Of a stretch of DNA of 20,149 bases, positions 387 through 8,107 are shown piece by piece (positions within the stretch are counted from its first letter, which is position 1; the number at the start of each line of letters is the position of its first letter). The notes under the pieces were generated by a model that saw nothing but the letters and a program-made list of their open reading frames with translations, searched no databases and was not told the origin of the DNA. Source of the DNA: a virus; IMG/VR virus record IMGVR_UViG_3300046517_000280, positions 1 to 20,149 of that record; one strand, given 5' to 3'. The translations under genes and the position numbers were made by a program.

Positions 387-791
387 GTGCCGGTCAGTAA
401 GCTTCACAGCAAGTATTCAGGGGCGCCTGCGCCTGCGTTGATGCCGATCAAATCGCGGGCATCCGCCGCGAGCCAGGCGCGCCGGCCGTCGCACAACAGA
501 CCCGAGCCAAAAGGTCCAAGACCCATCATCGATCAGCGCATCCGCGAGCGCATCCAGGCAGCTGCGATTGTCAACATCTTGACAGAGCACGTCAAAGGGA
601 AACGAAAGATGCGCGCTACCCAAGTCCGCGCCGCGCTAGGATTACTCGCGAAAGTCCTGCCCGATCTACAGACGATCGACTTGGCCGCGCAGGTCACCGT
701 GCGCCATGTAGTGAGAGACGAGCCTTTGAGCGTCGAGGAGTTTGCCCGTCAATACTGCGATCCACCGGTCATCGATCTGAAGCCGAATTGA
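387..791 (+). CDS. Putative terminase small subunit-like DNA-binding protein
   Basis: The 134-residue product is basic at its N-terminus (about residues 25-60, rich in Arg, Lys, Ser, Pro). It then has a helical segment, about residues 66-100, with the pattern KRKMRATQVRAALGLLAKVL followed by PDLQTIDL. A 'basic, then T/AQVRAA..LL.KvLPDL' arrangement is one I associate with small terminase or packaging-initiation proteins of proteobacterial phages, and the position ahead of the large terminase agrees. A small terminase binds the packaging site and feeds DNA to the large subunit. The start is uncertain: GTG 387 gives the longest frame and ATG 441 would remove 18 residues; neither has a clear Shine-Dalgarno. 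About 600 bases, including a 362-base non-coding stretch, separate it from the large subunit, which is unusual. It could instead be a regulator with the same fold. Confidence 0.5.
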   Translation: MPVSKLHSKYSGAPAPALMPIKSRASAASQARRPSHNRPEPKGPRPIIDQRIRERIQAAAIVNILTEHVKGKRKMRATQVRAALGLLAKVLPDLQTIDLAAQVTVRHVVRDEPLSVEEFARQYCDPPVIDLKPN

Positions 792-1153
792 GGGGCGAGC
801 TGCTAGCCCTAATGCGACATTATCGGTAGTCGACGTCTAAGTCGTTGACATCGTTGCATGTTTATCCCGCGGTCTGCCCGGCTCCAGTCACAACTCCAGT
901 CACTTCGCTCAGCGAGCGGCCTCGGCGGGTCACAGTAGAGATCAGACCAAGCGCCGCGACCAGGTCAGGCCTCGGAGGGCCTGGTGCGAGGGGCTGGGGC
1001 CGGGCTGGGCTGGGGGAGGGGCGGGGAGGGGCCCCCTCCGGGACCGGGGGGCCGGGGACCGGGGATGGACCGCCAGATCCGGCTGCGCGAGCGCCCGCCC
1101 CCTTCCCACGCGGAGCAGATAAAAACGCACCCAACCACATTGGAGGAATACTG
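792..1153. other. 362-base stretch without a convincing gene
   Basis: A frame is open from 845 into the next gene, but its translation is Gly/Pro/Arg low-complexity and would bury a Tat signal 103 residues inside a protein, so I treat it as non-coding. It holds a direct repeat CTCCAGTCAC (882-891 and 894-903, period 12), a small hairpin CGCTC-AGC-GAGCG (906-918), an inverted repeat CAGGCC/GGCCTG (966-971/978-983), a dense G-tract block (990-1064) and a near-palindrome GGAGGGGCCCCCTCC (1025-1039). A TTGACA at 845-850 resembles a -35 box but has no good -10 at 16-18 bases. A packaging site, a regulatory leader or both could lie here. Confidence 0.6.
990..1064 (+). repeat. Cluster of twelve G-tracts (potential G-quadruplexes)
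   Basis: The + strand carries eight runs of three to five G within 990-1031, separated by only one or two bases. Four more runs at 1040-1042, 1046-1051, 1054-1057 and 1061-1064 are separated by two or three bases. The second set contains the direct repeat GGGACCGGGG at 1040-1049 and 1055-1064. The spacing fits the usual G-quadruplex rule (four G3+ runs with loops of 1-7) three times over. The block lies about 90 bases upstream of the start at 1154, on the coding strand, so it would also be present in the mRNA leader. Confidence 0.75.
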
Positions 1154-1396
1154 ATGAATACGACACGACGCGGATTGTTCGGCTGGCTCGCCGGAACGGC
1201 TGCTGCGGCGGTCGTGGCGCCCGCGCTCGTGCAGGCGGCGGTTGCGGAGGCGCCTGTCGGCATGCCTCCTACCGGCGACTGGAACGAGGACGCCTGGCAA
1301 CCGCTCGCCGACGACGGCTCGCACTCGCATGCCTTCCTGACCGACGAGCTGCCCTCTCACACGCACTCGTTCCACTCGTTCCCGCGCCATGCTTGA
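1154..1396 (+). CDS. Small Tat-exported histidine-rich protein
   Basis: The start ATG 1154 is chosen because GGAGGA (1142-1147) lies six bases ahead and because it puts a signal peptide at the very N-terminus. The 80-residue product opens with TRRGLFG (twin Arg at residues 5-6), a hydrophobic stretch at about residues 10-28, and AxA-type cleavage options near residues 26-31. This is a standard twin-arginine signal. The remaining roughly 50 residues are acidic, then histidine-rich: six His between residues 57 and 79 (SHSH, SHTHSFH, RHA), which could bind metal. The gene overlaps the large terminase by 8 bases (ATGCTTGA), implying translational coupling. A Tat substrate inside a packaging operon is odd. 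It may be a moron that alters the host periplasm, an exclusion factor or a lysis helper; its function is unknown. Confidence 0.8.
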   Translation: MNTTRRGLFGWLAGTAAAAVVAPALVQAAVAEAPVGMPPTGDWNEDAWQPLADDGSHSHAFLTDELPSHTHSFHSFPRHA

Positions 1397-2858
1397 TCTA
1401 CCTGAAAAGGTCGTGTGGAGCCCGCAGGAGGGCCCGCAGCACGTCCTGTGCAAATGTAGTCTTGGCGAAGTCTTCATGGGCGGGGCGCGCGGCGGCGGCA
1501 AGACCGATGGCGTGCTCGGCAAATGGGCCGCGAAGGAGGCGCGCTGCGGGCCAGCCTTCAACGCCATGATGTTCAGGCGCACGACGGTGTCGTCGACCGA
1601 CGCCATCGACCGCTCGAAGGAGATCTACCGGCCGCTCGGCGGGCATTTCAACGAGGCGAAGCTCACCTGGCGCATGCCCAATGGCGGGCGGGTCGGCTTC
1701 GGCTACCTCGACGGGGTCGACGACGCGGCCGAGTATCAGGGCCGCAACCTGACCGACGCCTGGATCGAGGAGGCGGGGCAATATCCGACACCAGATCCGA
1801 TCTTCCGGTTGTTCGGGGCGCTGCGCTCGGCCGGCGGCGTGCCGGTGCAGCTGATCCTGACGGGCAACCCCGGCGGGCCTGGGCAGAGCTGGATCAGGGA
1901 CCGCTACGAGATGGTGCCCTTTCCCAAGGCGCCTAAGATCTTGCTCAAGAGCCTGCCGGACGGCACCCGGCACCAGGTCGCGGTGATCCCATCGCGGCTC
2001 GGCGATAATCAGATCCTGCTGAGACAAGATCCAGGCTATGCGTCGAGGCTGACCATGGTCGGCAATCCGACCCTGGTGCGCGCCTGGCTCGAAGGCGATT
2101 GGTCGGCGATCGAGGGTGCCTTCTTCACCGAGTGGGAGGAGCGTCGGCACGTCATCCCGGCCTTCGAGGTGCCTCGGCACTGGCTGCGCTTCCGCTCGAT
2201 GGACTGGGGGTCGGCCTCGCCCTTCTCGATCGGCTGGTGGGCCGTCGTCTCCGACCGCTACCAGCTCAAGGATGGTCGGACGCTGCCGCGCGGCGCGATC
2301 GTGCGCTATCGCGAATGGTATGGGGCGCGGAAGGTCGGCGAGAGCTGGACGGGGCTGAAGCTTCCCAACGAGGCGATCGGCGCCGGCATCGTCGAACGCG
2401 AGAAGGGTGAGCGCATCGCCTACGGGGTGCTCGATCCGTCTTGCATGAACCAGTCGGGCGGCCCCTCGATCTATGAGCAGATGCGGCAAGGCGCGCGCCA
2501 GGCCGGCGGCTCGCTCTTGTTTCGCGAGGCCGACAACACGCGGGCTCCCAAGCGCGGGCCGATCTCGGGCTGGGGTGCGCTGCGCGAGCGCCTGGTCGGC
2601 ACCGACGAAGCGCCGATGCTCTTCGCCTTCGACGTCTGCAAGCACCTGATCAGGACGCTGCCGATGATGGAGCACGACGCCGACCGGCCCGAGGATATCG
2701 ACACCGATGCCGAGGACCACGCGGTCGACGAGTGCCGCTACGCCTGCCTGTCGCGGCCTTGGGTCAGGCCGCGCCCGGTCGTCGAGGTGGTCAAGGCCGG
2801 CAGCGGCTACAGCCGCGACAAGGTCGACCGCCGGCCGCTGGTCGTGACGGATATGTGA
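1389..2858 (+). CDS. terL: Terminase large subunit (packaging ATPase/nuclease)
   Basis: The 489-residue protein shows the two-domain plan of large terminases, the motor that pumps DNA through the portal and cuts it. The ATPase domain has a Walker A GGARGGGKTD (residues 31-40), a Walker B-like segment with acidic pair DAWIEEAG (123-130) and a coupling motif LTGNPGG (157-163). The RNase H-like nuclease domain supplies candidate metal-binding acids at D272 (SMDWGS), D349 (VLDPS) and D443/D447 (EDHAVDECRYA). Length is normal for the family. The start overlaps the stop of the Tat gene; there is no clear Shine-Dalgarno, so initiation is probably coupled. The stop overlaps the next ATG as TGATG. Confidence 0.95.
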   Translation: MLDLPEKVVWSPQEGPQHVLCKCSLGEVFMGGARGGGKTDGVLGKWAAKEARCGPAFNAMMFRRTTVSSTDAIDRSKEIYRPLGGHFNEAKLTWRMPNGGRVGFGYLDGVDDAAEYQGRNLTDAWIEEAGQYPTPDPIFRLFGALRSAGGVPVQLILTGNPGGPGQSWIRDRYEMVPFPKAPKILLKSLPDGTRHQVAVIPSRLGDNQILLRQDPGYASRLTMVGNPTLVRAWLEGDWSAIEGAFFTEWEERRHVIPAFEVPRHWLRFRSMDWGSASPFSIGWWAVVSDRYQLKDGRTLPRGAIVRYREWYGARKVGESWTGLKLPNEAIGAGIVEREKGERIAYGVLDPSCMNQSGGPSIYEQMRQGARQAGGSLLFREADNTRAPKRGPISGWGALRERLVGTDEAPMLFAFDVCKHLIRTLPMMEHDADRPEDIDTDAEDHAVDECRYACLSRPWVRPRPVVEVVKAGSGYSRDKVDRRPLVVTDM

Positions 2859-5370: not shown

Positions 5371-5586
5371 ATGATTGCCATTGCGATCGAGGTTCTGTGG
5401 CTTCTCATCGGGGCCATCTGCCTGGCCGGCGTGATCTGGCTGGTGCTCTACGGGATCAACCATTTCATCACGGAAATCCCGCCGAGGATCGAGCAGGGCA
5501 TCTGGTTCATCGTGTTGTTGCTCATCATCATCGGCGCCCTCACCCTGCTGGCGGGAGGCTCTCTTCGACCGGCGTTCATCCGTTAG
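5371..5586 (+). CDS. Small two-transmembrane protein (holin-like size)
   Basis: ATG 5371 has GAGGTG (5360-5365) five bases ahead and follows the portal stop by nine bases. The 71-residue product has two hydrophobic segments: residues 3-27 (IAIEVLWLLIGAICLAGVIW) and about 44-62 (WFIVLLLIIIGALTLLAG). A short polar turn with two Pro and several charges joins them, and the tail is short and basic. Size and topology fit class II holins, but many phage two-TM miniproteins are not holins. No endolysin gene is adjacent; the only wall-active domain seen is in the internal protein at 15262. Function remains open. Confidence 0.75.
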   Translation: MIAIAIEVLWLLIGAICLAGVIWLVLYGINHFITEIPPRIEQGIWFIVLLLIIIGALTLLAGGSLRPAFIR

Positions 5587-5647: not shown

Positions 5648-8107
5648 ATGGCGGAATACGTCCTCGATCCGGTCCCGCATGACCCGTGGACGGTGCCGCA
5701 CGCGCATGAGCCGCTGATCGTCCCGGTCTACCCGAGGAACTATCCGCCGCCCAAGCCTTTGCCGGCGCCAGTCGAGGAGGGCACGCCGGCTTTAAGCCCC
5801 GCAGCGCCACCCACGGCGGCACCAGGCGGCGGCCCTGCCGCGCCCGGCGAGGCCCAGGATCTCGGGCCGCTGGTCGACAAATGGTTCCCCGGCCCGGCCG
5901 AGACGCCAGGCCAGCGAACGCCGGACGAGCTGCCCCCGCCGCCGGCCGGCATCGAGGCGCCCAATTTCTCGCTGCAGCCGGTCGGGCACGATCCGTTCGA
6001 CACCAAGCTCTACCTCGCGGCCGAGCGCGCCAAGCAGGCGATCGAGCGCCAGGCGCAGGCCCCGGTGCAGATGGGCTCGCCGCAGTCGCCCGACCCGTTC
6101 ATGGAGCACGAGATCGGGCAGCCCGCCTGGCCCTACGCCCAGAGCCCGCAGGACATGGATCTGCAGCAGGCCCTCGCGGCGGCCGGCGGCGGCCCCGACT
6201 TCCCCGCGATGGCGCCGCAGGCGCCGACCCCGGTCCTCCCGACCTGGATGGACCCGCAGAAGCAGGAAGCCTCGATCGGGCCGCAGCCGGCCGACTGGCA
6301 GAAGGGGCTCGAAGCGACCTTGCGCTCGATCGCGCCGCAAGGCTCGGGGCTCAGCGACACGGCGTCGGCGATCCCGAGCCTCATCGGCATGACGCCGGCC
6401 GGCTCGGTCGCGGATGTCGGGCAGTCCTGGAACCGGGGCGACCTCGCGGGCGTCGGCATGGCGGCGCTGGGCGCCCTGCCGGGTGTCGGCACGGCCGAGA
6501 GGGTCGGCGCCAAGGCCTTGACGGCGGCCGAGCGGATCGCGGCCAGGCGCGAGGCGGCGGGGCTCACGCGCACGCTCGAAGCCAACGCCCTCCCCGCAAC
6601 GGCGCCGAGCCTCGCCGAGAGCCTAGCGCCGAACGCCGCGCCCGAGATCGCGGGCGCCGGCCGCCTCGGCATCGGCGGCAACCAACCGCCACGCCAGGTG
6701 CCGCTGCTGCGCCAGCCGAACCCGTTCTCGCCGACGCTCGACACGATGCATCCCGACGAGGCGGCGTTGACGGTCAACGACATCCTGCAGCCCGACTATC
6801 CGGCGATCAAACGGGTCAAGGGGCGCGGGGTGGACACGATCGCGGGCGAGCTGGATCAACGGGCCCAGACCGCCTTGCGCAATATGGGGGTGCGCGGCGG
6901 CAAGATCTCGGGGCCCGACCCTGCGACGGTCGCCATCATGGCGCGCACCGCGCCGGGGCAGCCGCTCGGCCGGCTCGGCAACACCGACGAGCTGCTCGCT
7001 CGCAACCTCGCCTCCGAGGCGCGGGAGGCGATGCGACGCGGCGGCACCACGGCGGTCGACTGGTATTCGTCGAAGTTCGACAACGCCATGAAGATCGCGG
7101 CGCTGATGCACCCGGAGATCGCCACCGACCCGCATTCCGCGACCGCCTACCGGGCCGCGCTCGCCATCACCAGTCAGGGCGAGACGGTGCCGGCGAACGT
7201 CAAGCTCGCGAATGAGGTTTACGACCGCTTCAAGGCCTCGTCGGTCAATCCCGCCGAGCGGCGCTTCGACGCGGCCGACATCGAGGCCAAGGCCAAGAAC
7301 GGCCCGGCGATGAAGGCCAATCTCACCAAGATGAACGACCTACTCGAAGCCATGGACCCGGCGGGCGTGACCAGGCTCCTGAGCGAGGAGATGTCGGTCA
7401 GGGATTGGGCCAAGCGGGGCTTCAAGGTCGAGGGCGAGCTGGCCGACACGCTCGTCCACGGCTCGGCCATTCTCGGGCCTAAGATCGGCGGCGGCTTCTA
7501 CCAGAACCTGTCGGGCAACTACAATCCGACCACCTTCGACCTGTGGTGGATGCGCAAGTTCGGGCGCTCGACCGGCAATCTGGTGGGGCTCCAGGACACG
7601 ACCAAGCAGCGGGCCCGCCTGGAGAGGCTGCTGGAGGCGGCGAAGGGCGACACGACCTTGCCCCCGGAGATCCAGGCGCTCGCCGCCCTGCCCGTGCCCA
7701 AGACTCAGCCGGGCCTATTCCGGCGGGCGGACGACATCGCTTCGGCGCATGAGCGCCACTACAGCAAGAACCAGGCCGACTACGCCTCGAAGAAATACCC
7801 CGACCGGCCGCTTCAGAAATCGGACCTTGCCAAGGCCTCGATCGCCTACCGGGACGCCATCACGGGGATCAACGAGGCCCCCACCAGCGGCGGCCAGCGC
7901 AACTGGATGCGGGCCGTGACCCAGAGGGCCCGTGAGATATTGGCGGAACACGATATTCACATGACCAATGCCGATCTGCAGGCGACGCTGTGGTATCCAG
8001 AGAAGGATCTTTATGCTAAGCTTGGAGGCAAGCCCAGTGAGGGCTTGAATGTGGACTACGAGAGCGCGCACCGCGATCTCGCCCGCTCAAGGGGGATCTT
8101 AAAATGA
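5648..8107 (+). CDS. Large 819-aa phage protein, polyvalent/ejected-protein-like
   Basis: GAGGG at 5636-5640, seven bases ahead, supports ATG 5648. Residues 1-215 are Pro/Ala-rich and probably disordered. Residues 228-285 form a small-residue amphipathic or membrane-active stretch (AGVGMAALGALPGVGTAERV). From about residue 360 to the end it is a folded helical region with distinctive motifs: AVDWYSSKFDNAMKIAALMH (469-488), an ILGPKIGGGFYQNLSGNYNP segment (608-627), TTFDLWWMRKFGRSTG (628-643) and ADLQATLWYPEKDLYAKLGG (775-794). I recall similar segments in very large polyvalent proteins of phages and mobile elements and in predicted internal virion proteins, but cannot name the family with certainty. 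It sits between portal and scaffold, where P22 has no such gene. It may be a co-injected effector or an internal core protein. It overlaps the next gene by ATGA. Confidence 0.8.
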   Translation: MAEYVLDPVPHDPWTVPHAHEPLIVPVYPRNYPPPKPLPAPVEEGTPALSPAAPPTAAPGGGPAAPGEAQDLGPLVDKWFPGPAETPGQRTPDELPPPPAGIEAPNFSLQPVGHDPFDTKLYLAAERAKQAIERQAQAPVQMGSPQSPDPFMEHEIGQPAWPYAQSPQDMDLQQALAAAGGGPDFPAMAPQAPTPVLPTWMDPQKQEASIGPQPADWQKGLEATLRSIAPQGSGLSDTASAIPSLIGMTPAGSVADVGQSWNRGDLAGVGMAALGALPGVGTAERVGAKALTAAERIAARREAAGLTRTLEANALPATAPSLAESLAPNAAPEIAGAGRLGIGGNQPPRQVPLLRQPNPFSPTLDTMHPDEAALTVNDILQPDYPAIKRVKGRGVDTIAGELDQRAQTALRNMGVRGGKISGPDPATVAIMARTAPGQPLGRLGNTDELLARNLASEAREAMRRGGTTAVDWYSSKFDNAMKIAALMHPEIATDPHSATAYRAALAITSQGETVPANVKLANEVYDRFKASSVNPAERRFDAADIEAKAKNGPAMKANLTKMNDLLEAMDPAGVTRLLSEEMSVRDWAKRGFKVEGELADTLVHGSAILGPKIGGGFYQNLSGNYNPTTFDLWWMRKFGRSTGNLVGLQDTTKQRARLERLLEAAKGDTTLPPEIQALAALPVPKTQPGLFRRADDIASAHERHYSKNQADYASKKYPDRPLQKSDLAKASIAYRDAITGINEAPTSGGQRNWMRAVTQRAREILAEHDIHMTNADLQATLWYPEKDLYAKLGGKPSEGLNVDYESAHRDLARSRGILK

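Follow-up and report, generated by a model that had tools for sequence, protein, structure and literature searches.

The window analyzed, a 20 kb virus record (20,149 nucleotides) of a soil phage, carries a gene for a miniprotein between a probable terminase small subunit gene (terS) and the terminase large subunit gene (terL), with a P22-type portal gene downstream of terL. The following features were assigned:

387..791, + strand: probable terminase small subunit gene, by comparison with ORFs of L020 and L013
792..1153, + strand: leader between terS and the miniprotein gene, common to relatives lacking the gene; it contains a G-rich run and the conserved block CGCGGAGCAGATAAAAACGCA
1142..1147, + strand: Shine-Dalgarno sequence GGAGGA of the miniprotein gene; in phages lacking the gene it directly precedes terL
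1154..1396, + strand: miniprotein gene, 80 aa (ORF and homologues, dN/dS about 0.4)
1154..1252, + strand: predicted Tat signal peptide, residues 1-33 (TatP motif match; TTRRGLFGWLAG invariant in three homologues)
1253..1312, + strand: linker, residues 34-53, not conserved between homologues
1313..1372, + strand: HxH-x9-HxH module, residues 54-73, DGSHSHAFLTDELPSHTHSF, tail-fiber-tip-like (homologue alignment and tail-protein comparisons)
1389..2858, + strand: terL (Pfam PF04466, phrog_979)

The product of the probable small subunit gene shares 45% identity over 75 aa with the L020 ORF that immediately precedes terL, and the corresponding ORF of L013 matches phrog_51, terminase small subunit. 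Since the relatives of TerL occur mostly in Hyphomicrobiales and other Alphaproteobacteria, a host within these groups is suggested. Directly after the portal gene, positions 5371-5586 encode a protein of 71 aa that contains two strongly hydrophobic segments, has no PHROGs match and looks like a small, holin-like membrane protein. An 819-aa protein, also with no PHROGs match, is encoded at 5648-8107 between the portal and capsid genes.

The miniprotein gene and its coupling to terL

The miniprotein ORF runs on the plus strand from ATG 1154 to a TGA ending at 1396 and specifies 80 residues (MNTTRRGLFGWLAGTAAAAVVAPALVQAAVAEAPVGMPPTGDWNEDAWQPLADDGSHSHAFLTDELPSHTHSFHSFPRHA). Just 5' of the ATG lies GGAGGA, with a predicted anti-Shine-Dalgarno duplex of -9.3 kcal/mol, so that the excellent ribosome-binding site of the original prediction was borne out. 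When 468 kb of the window and related DNA were scanned with a strict Tat test together with a Shine-Dalgarno sequence, this ORF was the only one selected among 1011 short ORFs; in 2 Mb of random sequence none of 6036 was. Comparison of the window miniprotein with its homologues gave a dN/dS of about 0.4. The ORF is a genuine translated phage gene and not a chance reading frame.

The terL start codon (ATG 1389) overlaps the end of the miniprotein gene by 8 nt, as had been claimed, and stop and start overlap in the two homologous loci, L006 and L007, as well (TGATG). No Shine-Dalgarno sequence of its own was found for terL in the window (anti-Shine-Dalgarno duplex +0.7), and with its start overlapped in this way terL very likely depends on translation of the miniprotein ORF. 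The expectation that the miniprotein is made whenever the terminase is made can thus be taken further, to a probable translational coupling of the two genes. No promoter or terminator belonging to the miniprotein gene was seen.

The segment at 1113-1153, consisting of CGGAGCAG[AC]TAAAAAC[AG]CA and the Shine-Dalgarno block, hardly varies among the contigs found; the gene that it serves is either that of the miniprotein or terL. Further upstream, between terS and the miniprotein gene (960-1075), the strand is very G-rich, with GGGG runs followed by GGGGCCCCCTCC. The GGGACCGGGGATGGAC sequence after the G-rich run is conserved in the six contigs aligned, those lacking the gene included, and the stretch is a candidate regulatory or packaging-site element.

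Homologues and patchy distribution

Relatives were found by TerL searches, which returned phages with 53-79% identical TerL, and the regions upstream of their terL genes were then read. Two homologues of the miniprotein, with 54-58% identity, occupy the same place before terL (L006:5735-5989 and L007:956-1204). Invariant in all three are M1, T3-G14, D54-G55, H57, H59, F61, D64-P67, H69, H71, F73 and a few more residues; the homologues thus keep the RR pair, the GLFGWLAG core and DG[AS]HxHxF-x2-DELPxHxHxF. The original prediction had proposed that homologues beside terL be inspected for the RR pair and the histidines, and both are retained in L006 and L007. The middle of the protein is wholly different among the three; L006 and L007 differ there too, although the DNA of their terL genes is about 95% identical.

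In the close relatives L008, L010 and L011 the same leader and Shine-Dalgarno sequence are present and the miniprotein gene is absent. A terL tree groups L006 and L007 with L010 and L011 and places the window apart; carriers and non-carriers are thus interleaved, which implies at least two gains or losses of the gene. On this comparative evidence it is an accessory cassette, an insertion that separates terL from a shared late-operon Shine-Dalgarno site. The description of the miniprotein as a product of the packaging operon therefore holds for its position before terL and not for its function, and a role in packaging was rejected because these close relatives do without the gene.

No further carrier was found among 2.9 million viral contigs searched by protein, profile, motif pattern, leader pattern and core profile; these searches returned just the contigs of the three carriers, identical copies and relatives lacking the gene. 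The family thus comprises three distinct sequences in a narrow phage group. No homologue was found in plasmids, in genome contigs, in the 12 genomes holding related terL loci or in about 780 alphaproteobacterial genomes, the last giving only Tat-signal or chance matches. Searches of Pfam, NCBIfam and PDB with the miniprotein or its profile gave nothing credible, and no match in phage records covered more than 33% of it. An isoamylase match (E 0.026) was rejected as chance, as were Vibrio phage matches in the phage records (26 aa only, E 0.5-0.6). The searches made thus found no described relative. A Rhizobium tubonense locus holds, on the strand opposite to terL and about 1.8 kb upstream of it (L052:3003-3200, -), a gene for a small, secreted-looking protein with an HHHHHH run (MNKFLIASAIAIASLVGTSVSSQA...NYHHHHHHCYT); this His-rich, exported-looking peptide near prophage genes is different from the miniprotein.

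Tat-type signal and HxH module

The Tat criterion applied was the TatP motif RR.[FGAVML][LITMVF] in the n-region, as quoted in PMC6085387. It is matched by RRGLF at residues 5-9 of the window protein and of both homologues, in agreement with the RR signal originally predicted. In the window protein about 26 uncharged residues follow, and AxA-type cleavage choices (VQA, AVA, AEA) are present at about residues 28-33; in L006 and L007 the choice is AQA. Mean hydropathy over residues 7-26 is 1.75 in the window protein and 1.02 in L007, values of an uncharged, weakly hydrophobic h-region. A glutamate at residue 22 makes both homologues, of which L007 lay outside the scanned set, fail the strict Tat test, yet they contain the TatP motif. 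Export by the Tat route, which carries folded proteins out (PMC6085387), is suggested by this signal. A Tat-like N-terminus, MLSRRSLFR.IG, was also seen within terL at L061:1706-1897 and L063:5731-5823, apparently in an alternative frame. These ORFs were rejected as chance overlaps, and they serve as a warning that RR motifs alone arise by chance.

Six histidines (57, 59, 69, 71, 74 and 79) lie within the last 24 residues, as had been counted, and the His motif is conserved in both homologues. When the records of relatives were searched with a profile built from the three miniproteins, the hits fell on the HxH region of ORFs in G006, G010, G011 and G012 (open frames of 421-473 residues, encoded proteins of 421-454 residues). 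The fibers compared are those of related phages, not the window phage's own. The scanned proteins of G006, G010 and G012 are tail proteins by family match (phrog_8763, phrog_19618 tail collar and phrog_2097) and carry 5-13 HxH motifs at steps of 10-14 residues, often 12, and 12 residues is also the period of the HxH pair in the miniprotein. The profile of these tail proteins matched the T4 gp37 tip (2XGF, E 1.5e-5) and also a tailspike head-binding domain (7EEQ).

By BLASTP the L007 miniprotein and the G006 tail protein share 57% identity over 28 aa (E 3e-6 for the pair), with DGSHTHSFRCDELPAHSHHFATRLDERG of L007 aligned to the last HxH pair of the G006 fiber, DGSHTHSGVTDLGGAHTHIFATDLSGGG. Against G006, none of 1000 composition shuffles reached the observed score for any of the three miniproteins, and when the histidines were held fixed only 0-1 of 2000 did so. 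The likeness to this nearest fiber therefore exceeds histidine spacing. The His-fixed counts were 1-54 of 2000 against G010 and 5-158 of 2000 against G012, the more distant fiber, against which the window miniprotein scores less well. The miniprotein matches phrog_2097 through its HxH stretch only (E 0.0045 with the mature part).

The HxH part is thus no random His cluster; it copies the period and local sequence of the last tail-fiber HxH pair. Of the metal-scavenging cluster originally proposed, conservation of the histidines stood; their arrangement is specifically HxH-x9-HxH, like the fiber tips of related phages, which does not point to generic scavenging. Miniproteins and tail proteins may have converged on a short His-rich design, since their profile-profile comparison (E 1.3e-4) covers 28 columns at a probability of only 54%, figures that do not settle between descent and convergence. 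What the module has in common with known fiber tips is the repeated HxH with its period of about 12 residues; at 80 aa, and with no Pfam or NCBIfam match, the miniprotein is not a full-length fiber with a virion-attachment domain. In solved fibers, an octahedral iron site with six His ligands is built from the HxH pairs of three chains (PMC6116203; PMC11705849), and by analogy the miniprotein may bind metal as a trimer. An AlphaFold monomer model, of low confidence (pLDDT 54), placed short strands on both HxH motifs, which is compatible with a fiber-tip reading and is not evidence for it.

Possible function and comparison with known systems

The anatomy of the gene is firm and odd and its family is small; the function proposed here is read from sequence. 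The explanation tentatively preferred is that the miniprotein is a Tat-exported, metal-binding piece of the tail-fiber-tip type which acts in the envelope and possibly hinders re-adsorption. It would be made together with the packaging proteins and would take up iron or zinc in the cytoplasm, probably as a trimer like T4 gp37. Such cytoplasmic folding around a metal would fit the Tat route, since Tat exports folded proteins, and the loaded protein would leave the cytoplasm folded and work in the periplasm or outer membrane. There we infer that the tip-like module could engage the phage's own receptor and so hinder re-adsorption of progeny or sister phages. Receptor interference is the simplest specific role because the module resembles a receptor-binding tip, and by analogy with Cor. 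In keeping with the proposal, it is precisely the core of the RR signal and the HxH module that are conserved while the linker is replaced. Morons typically occur in some close relatives and not in others, and the distribution of the miniprotein gene may be likened to theirs. In its most specific form, in which a metal-loaded mimic of the phage's own fiber tip jams the receptor from the periplasmic side, so that exclusion by self-mimicry depends on Tat, the explanation is rather unlikely.

An exported metal-binding peptide with no receptor function, which buffers or delivers periplasmic iron or zinc, for instance for the folding of phage proteins or during lysis, is possible though doubtful. 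The conserved Tat-type signal and paired HxH agree with it, and HxH sites of the fiber kind hold iron or zinc in phage fibers (PMC6116203); however, the likeness to tail tips extends past the histidines, for which plain metal buffering has no need, and the metals of fiber HxH sites are structural and buried, not exchangeable. That the signal is instead an uncleaved membrane anchor, with the HxH tail facing the cytoplasm or the periplasm, as in a lysis or injection accessory, is unlikely. Hydropathy of the window protein does peak at 1.86 over 19 residues, a marginal value for a membrane helix, and AlphaFold, again at low confidence, drew residues 6-32 as a single helix. In L007, though, the value is only 1.09, with proline and glutamate in the stretch, which would make a weak anchor and a normal Tat signal, and all three proteins keep the exact RR-x-[hydrophobic]2 motif.

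The position of the gene allows a different reading, in which the ORF mainly sets terL expression by coupling and the peptide is secondary. The contrast in duplex strength (-9.3 kcal/mol for the miniprotein ORF against +0.7 for terL), the stop/start overlap in 3/3 carriers and the direct use of the same Shine-Dalgarno sequence by terL in relatives lacking the gene are in its favor, but those relatives do without the ORF, and a mere leader would not keep RR, GLFGWLAG and HxH at a dN/dS of about 0.4 with a varying linker; such a device is improbable as the main explanation. A functionless remnant, a tail-fiber gene fragment captured behind a start region, would account for the tail-tip similarity and the patchy distribution, yet it is very improbable given the same dN/dS, the intact frame, the ends conserved in three lineages and the optimal Shine-Dalgarno sequence.

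Should the preferred explanation, an exported fiber-tip-type piece, be true, it would join phage use of the Tat export route with a part of a receptor-binding tip that works outside the virion, and would give a testable handle both on how late-expressed phage proteins change the envelope and on the reason why fiber tips so often contain HxH metal sites. No paper on phage Tat substrates was found in the literature searched. The Tat signal and the fiber-tip HxH each have known counterparts; the libraries searched yielded no case of the two combined.

With bacterial Tat substrates the miniprotein has in common the RR motif, a weakly hydrophobic Ala/Gly-rich h-region and AxA-type cleavage, and the best chromosomal match of its signal in 397 Hyphomicrobiales genomes was an ordinary RR-signal protein (L070); it differs in being encoded by a phage, in a mature part of fewer than 50 residues and in having no cofactor enzyme fold. 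The tips of T4 gp37 (2XGF) and R-pyocin fibers show the same HxH pairs, 12-residue spacing and similar neighbors, whereas the miniprotein has one HxH pair in 80 aa and a Tat-type signal, is encoded before terL and is no virion fiber. The pid gene of P22 is reportedly a moron, an accessory cassette in a phage late operon. Like such morons, the miniprotein gene is an extra late-region gene found in some relatives only; unlike them it has no promoter or terminator of its own that was seen and is probably coupled to terL. Phage-coded exclusion by receptor interference is established, for example for Cor of mEp167 (PMC9311878). Cor and T4 Spackle are small phage products that interfere at the envelope with adsorption or entry, as is proposed for the miniprotein, which shows no sequence relation to known superinfection-exclusion proteins in Pfam, NCBIfam, PHROGs or phage records. 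It differs from both in being expressed with late genes and in carrying a Tat-type signal rather than a Sec or lipoprotein signal.
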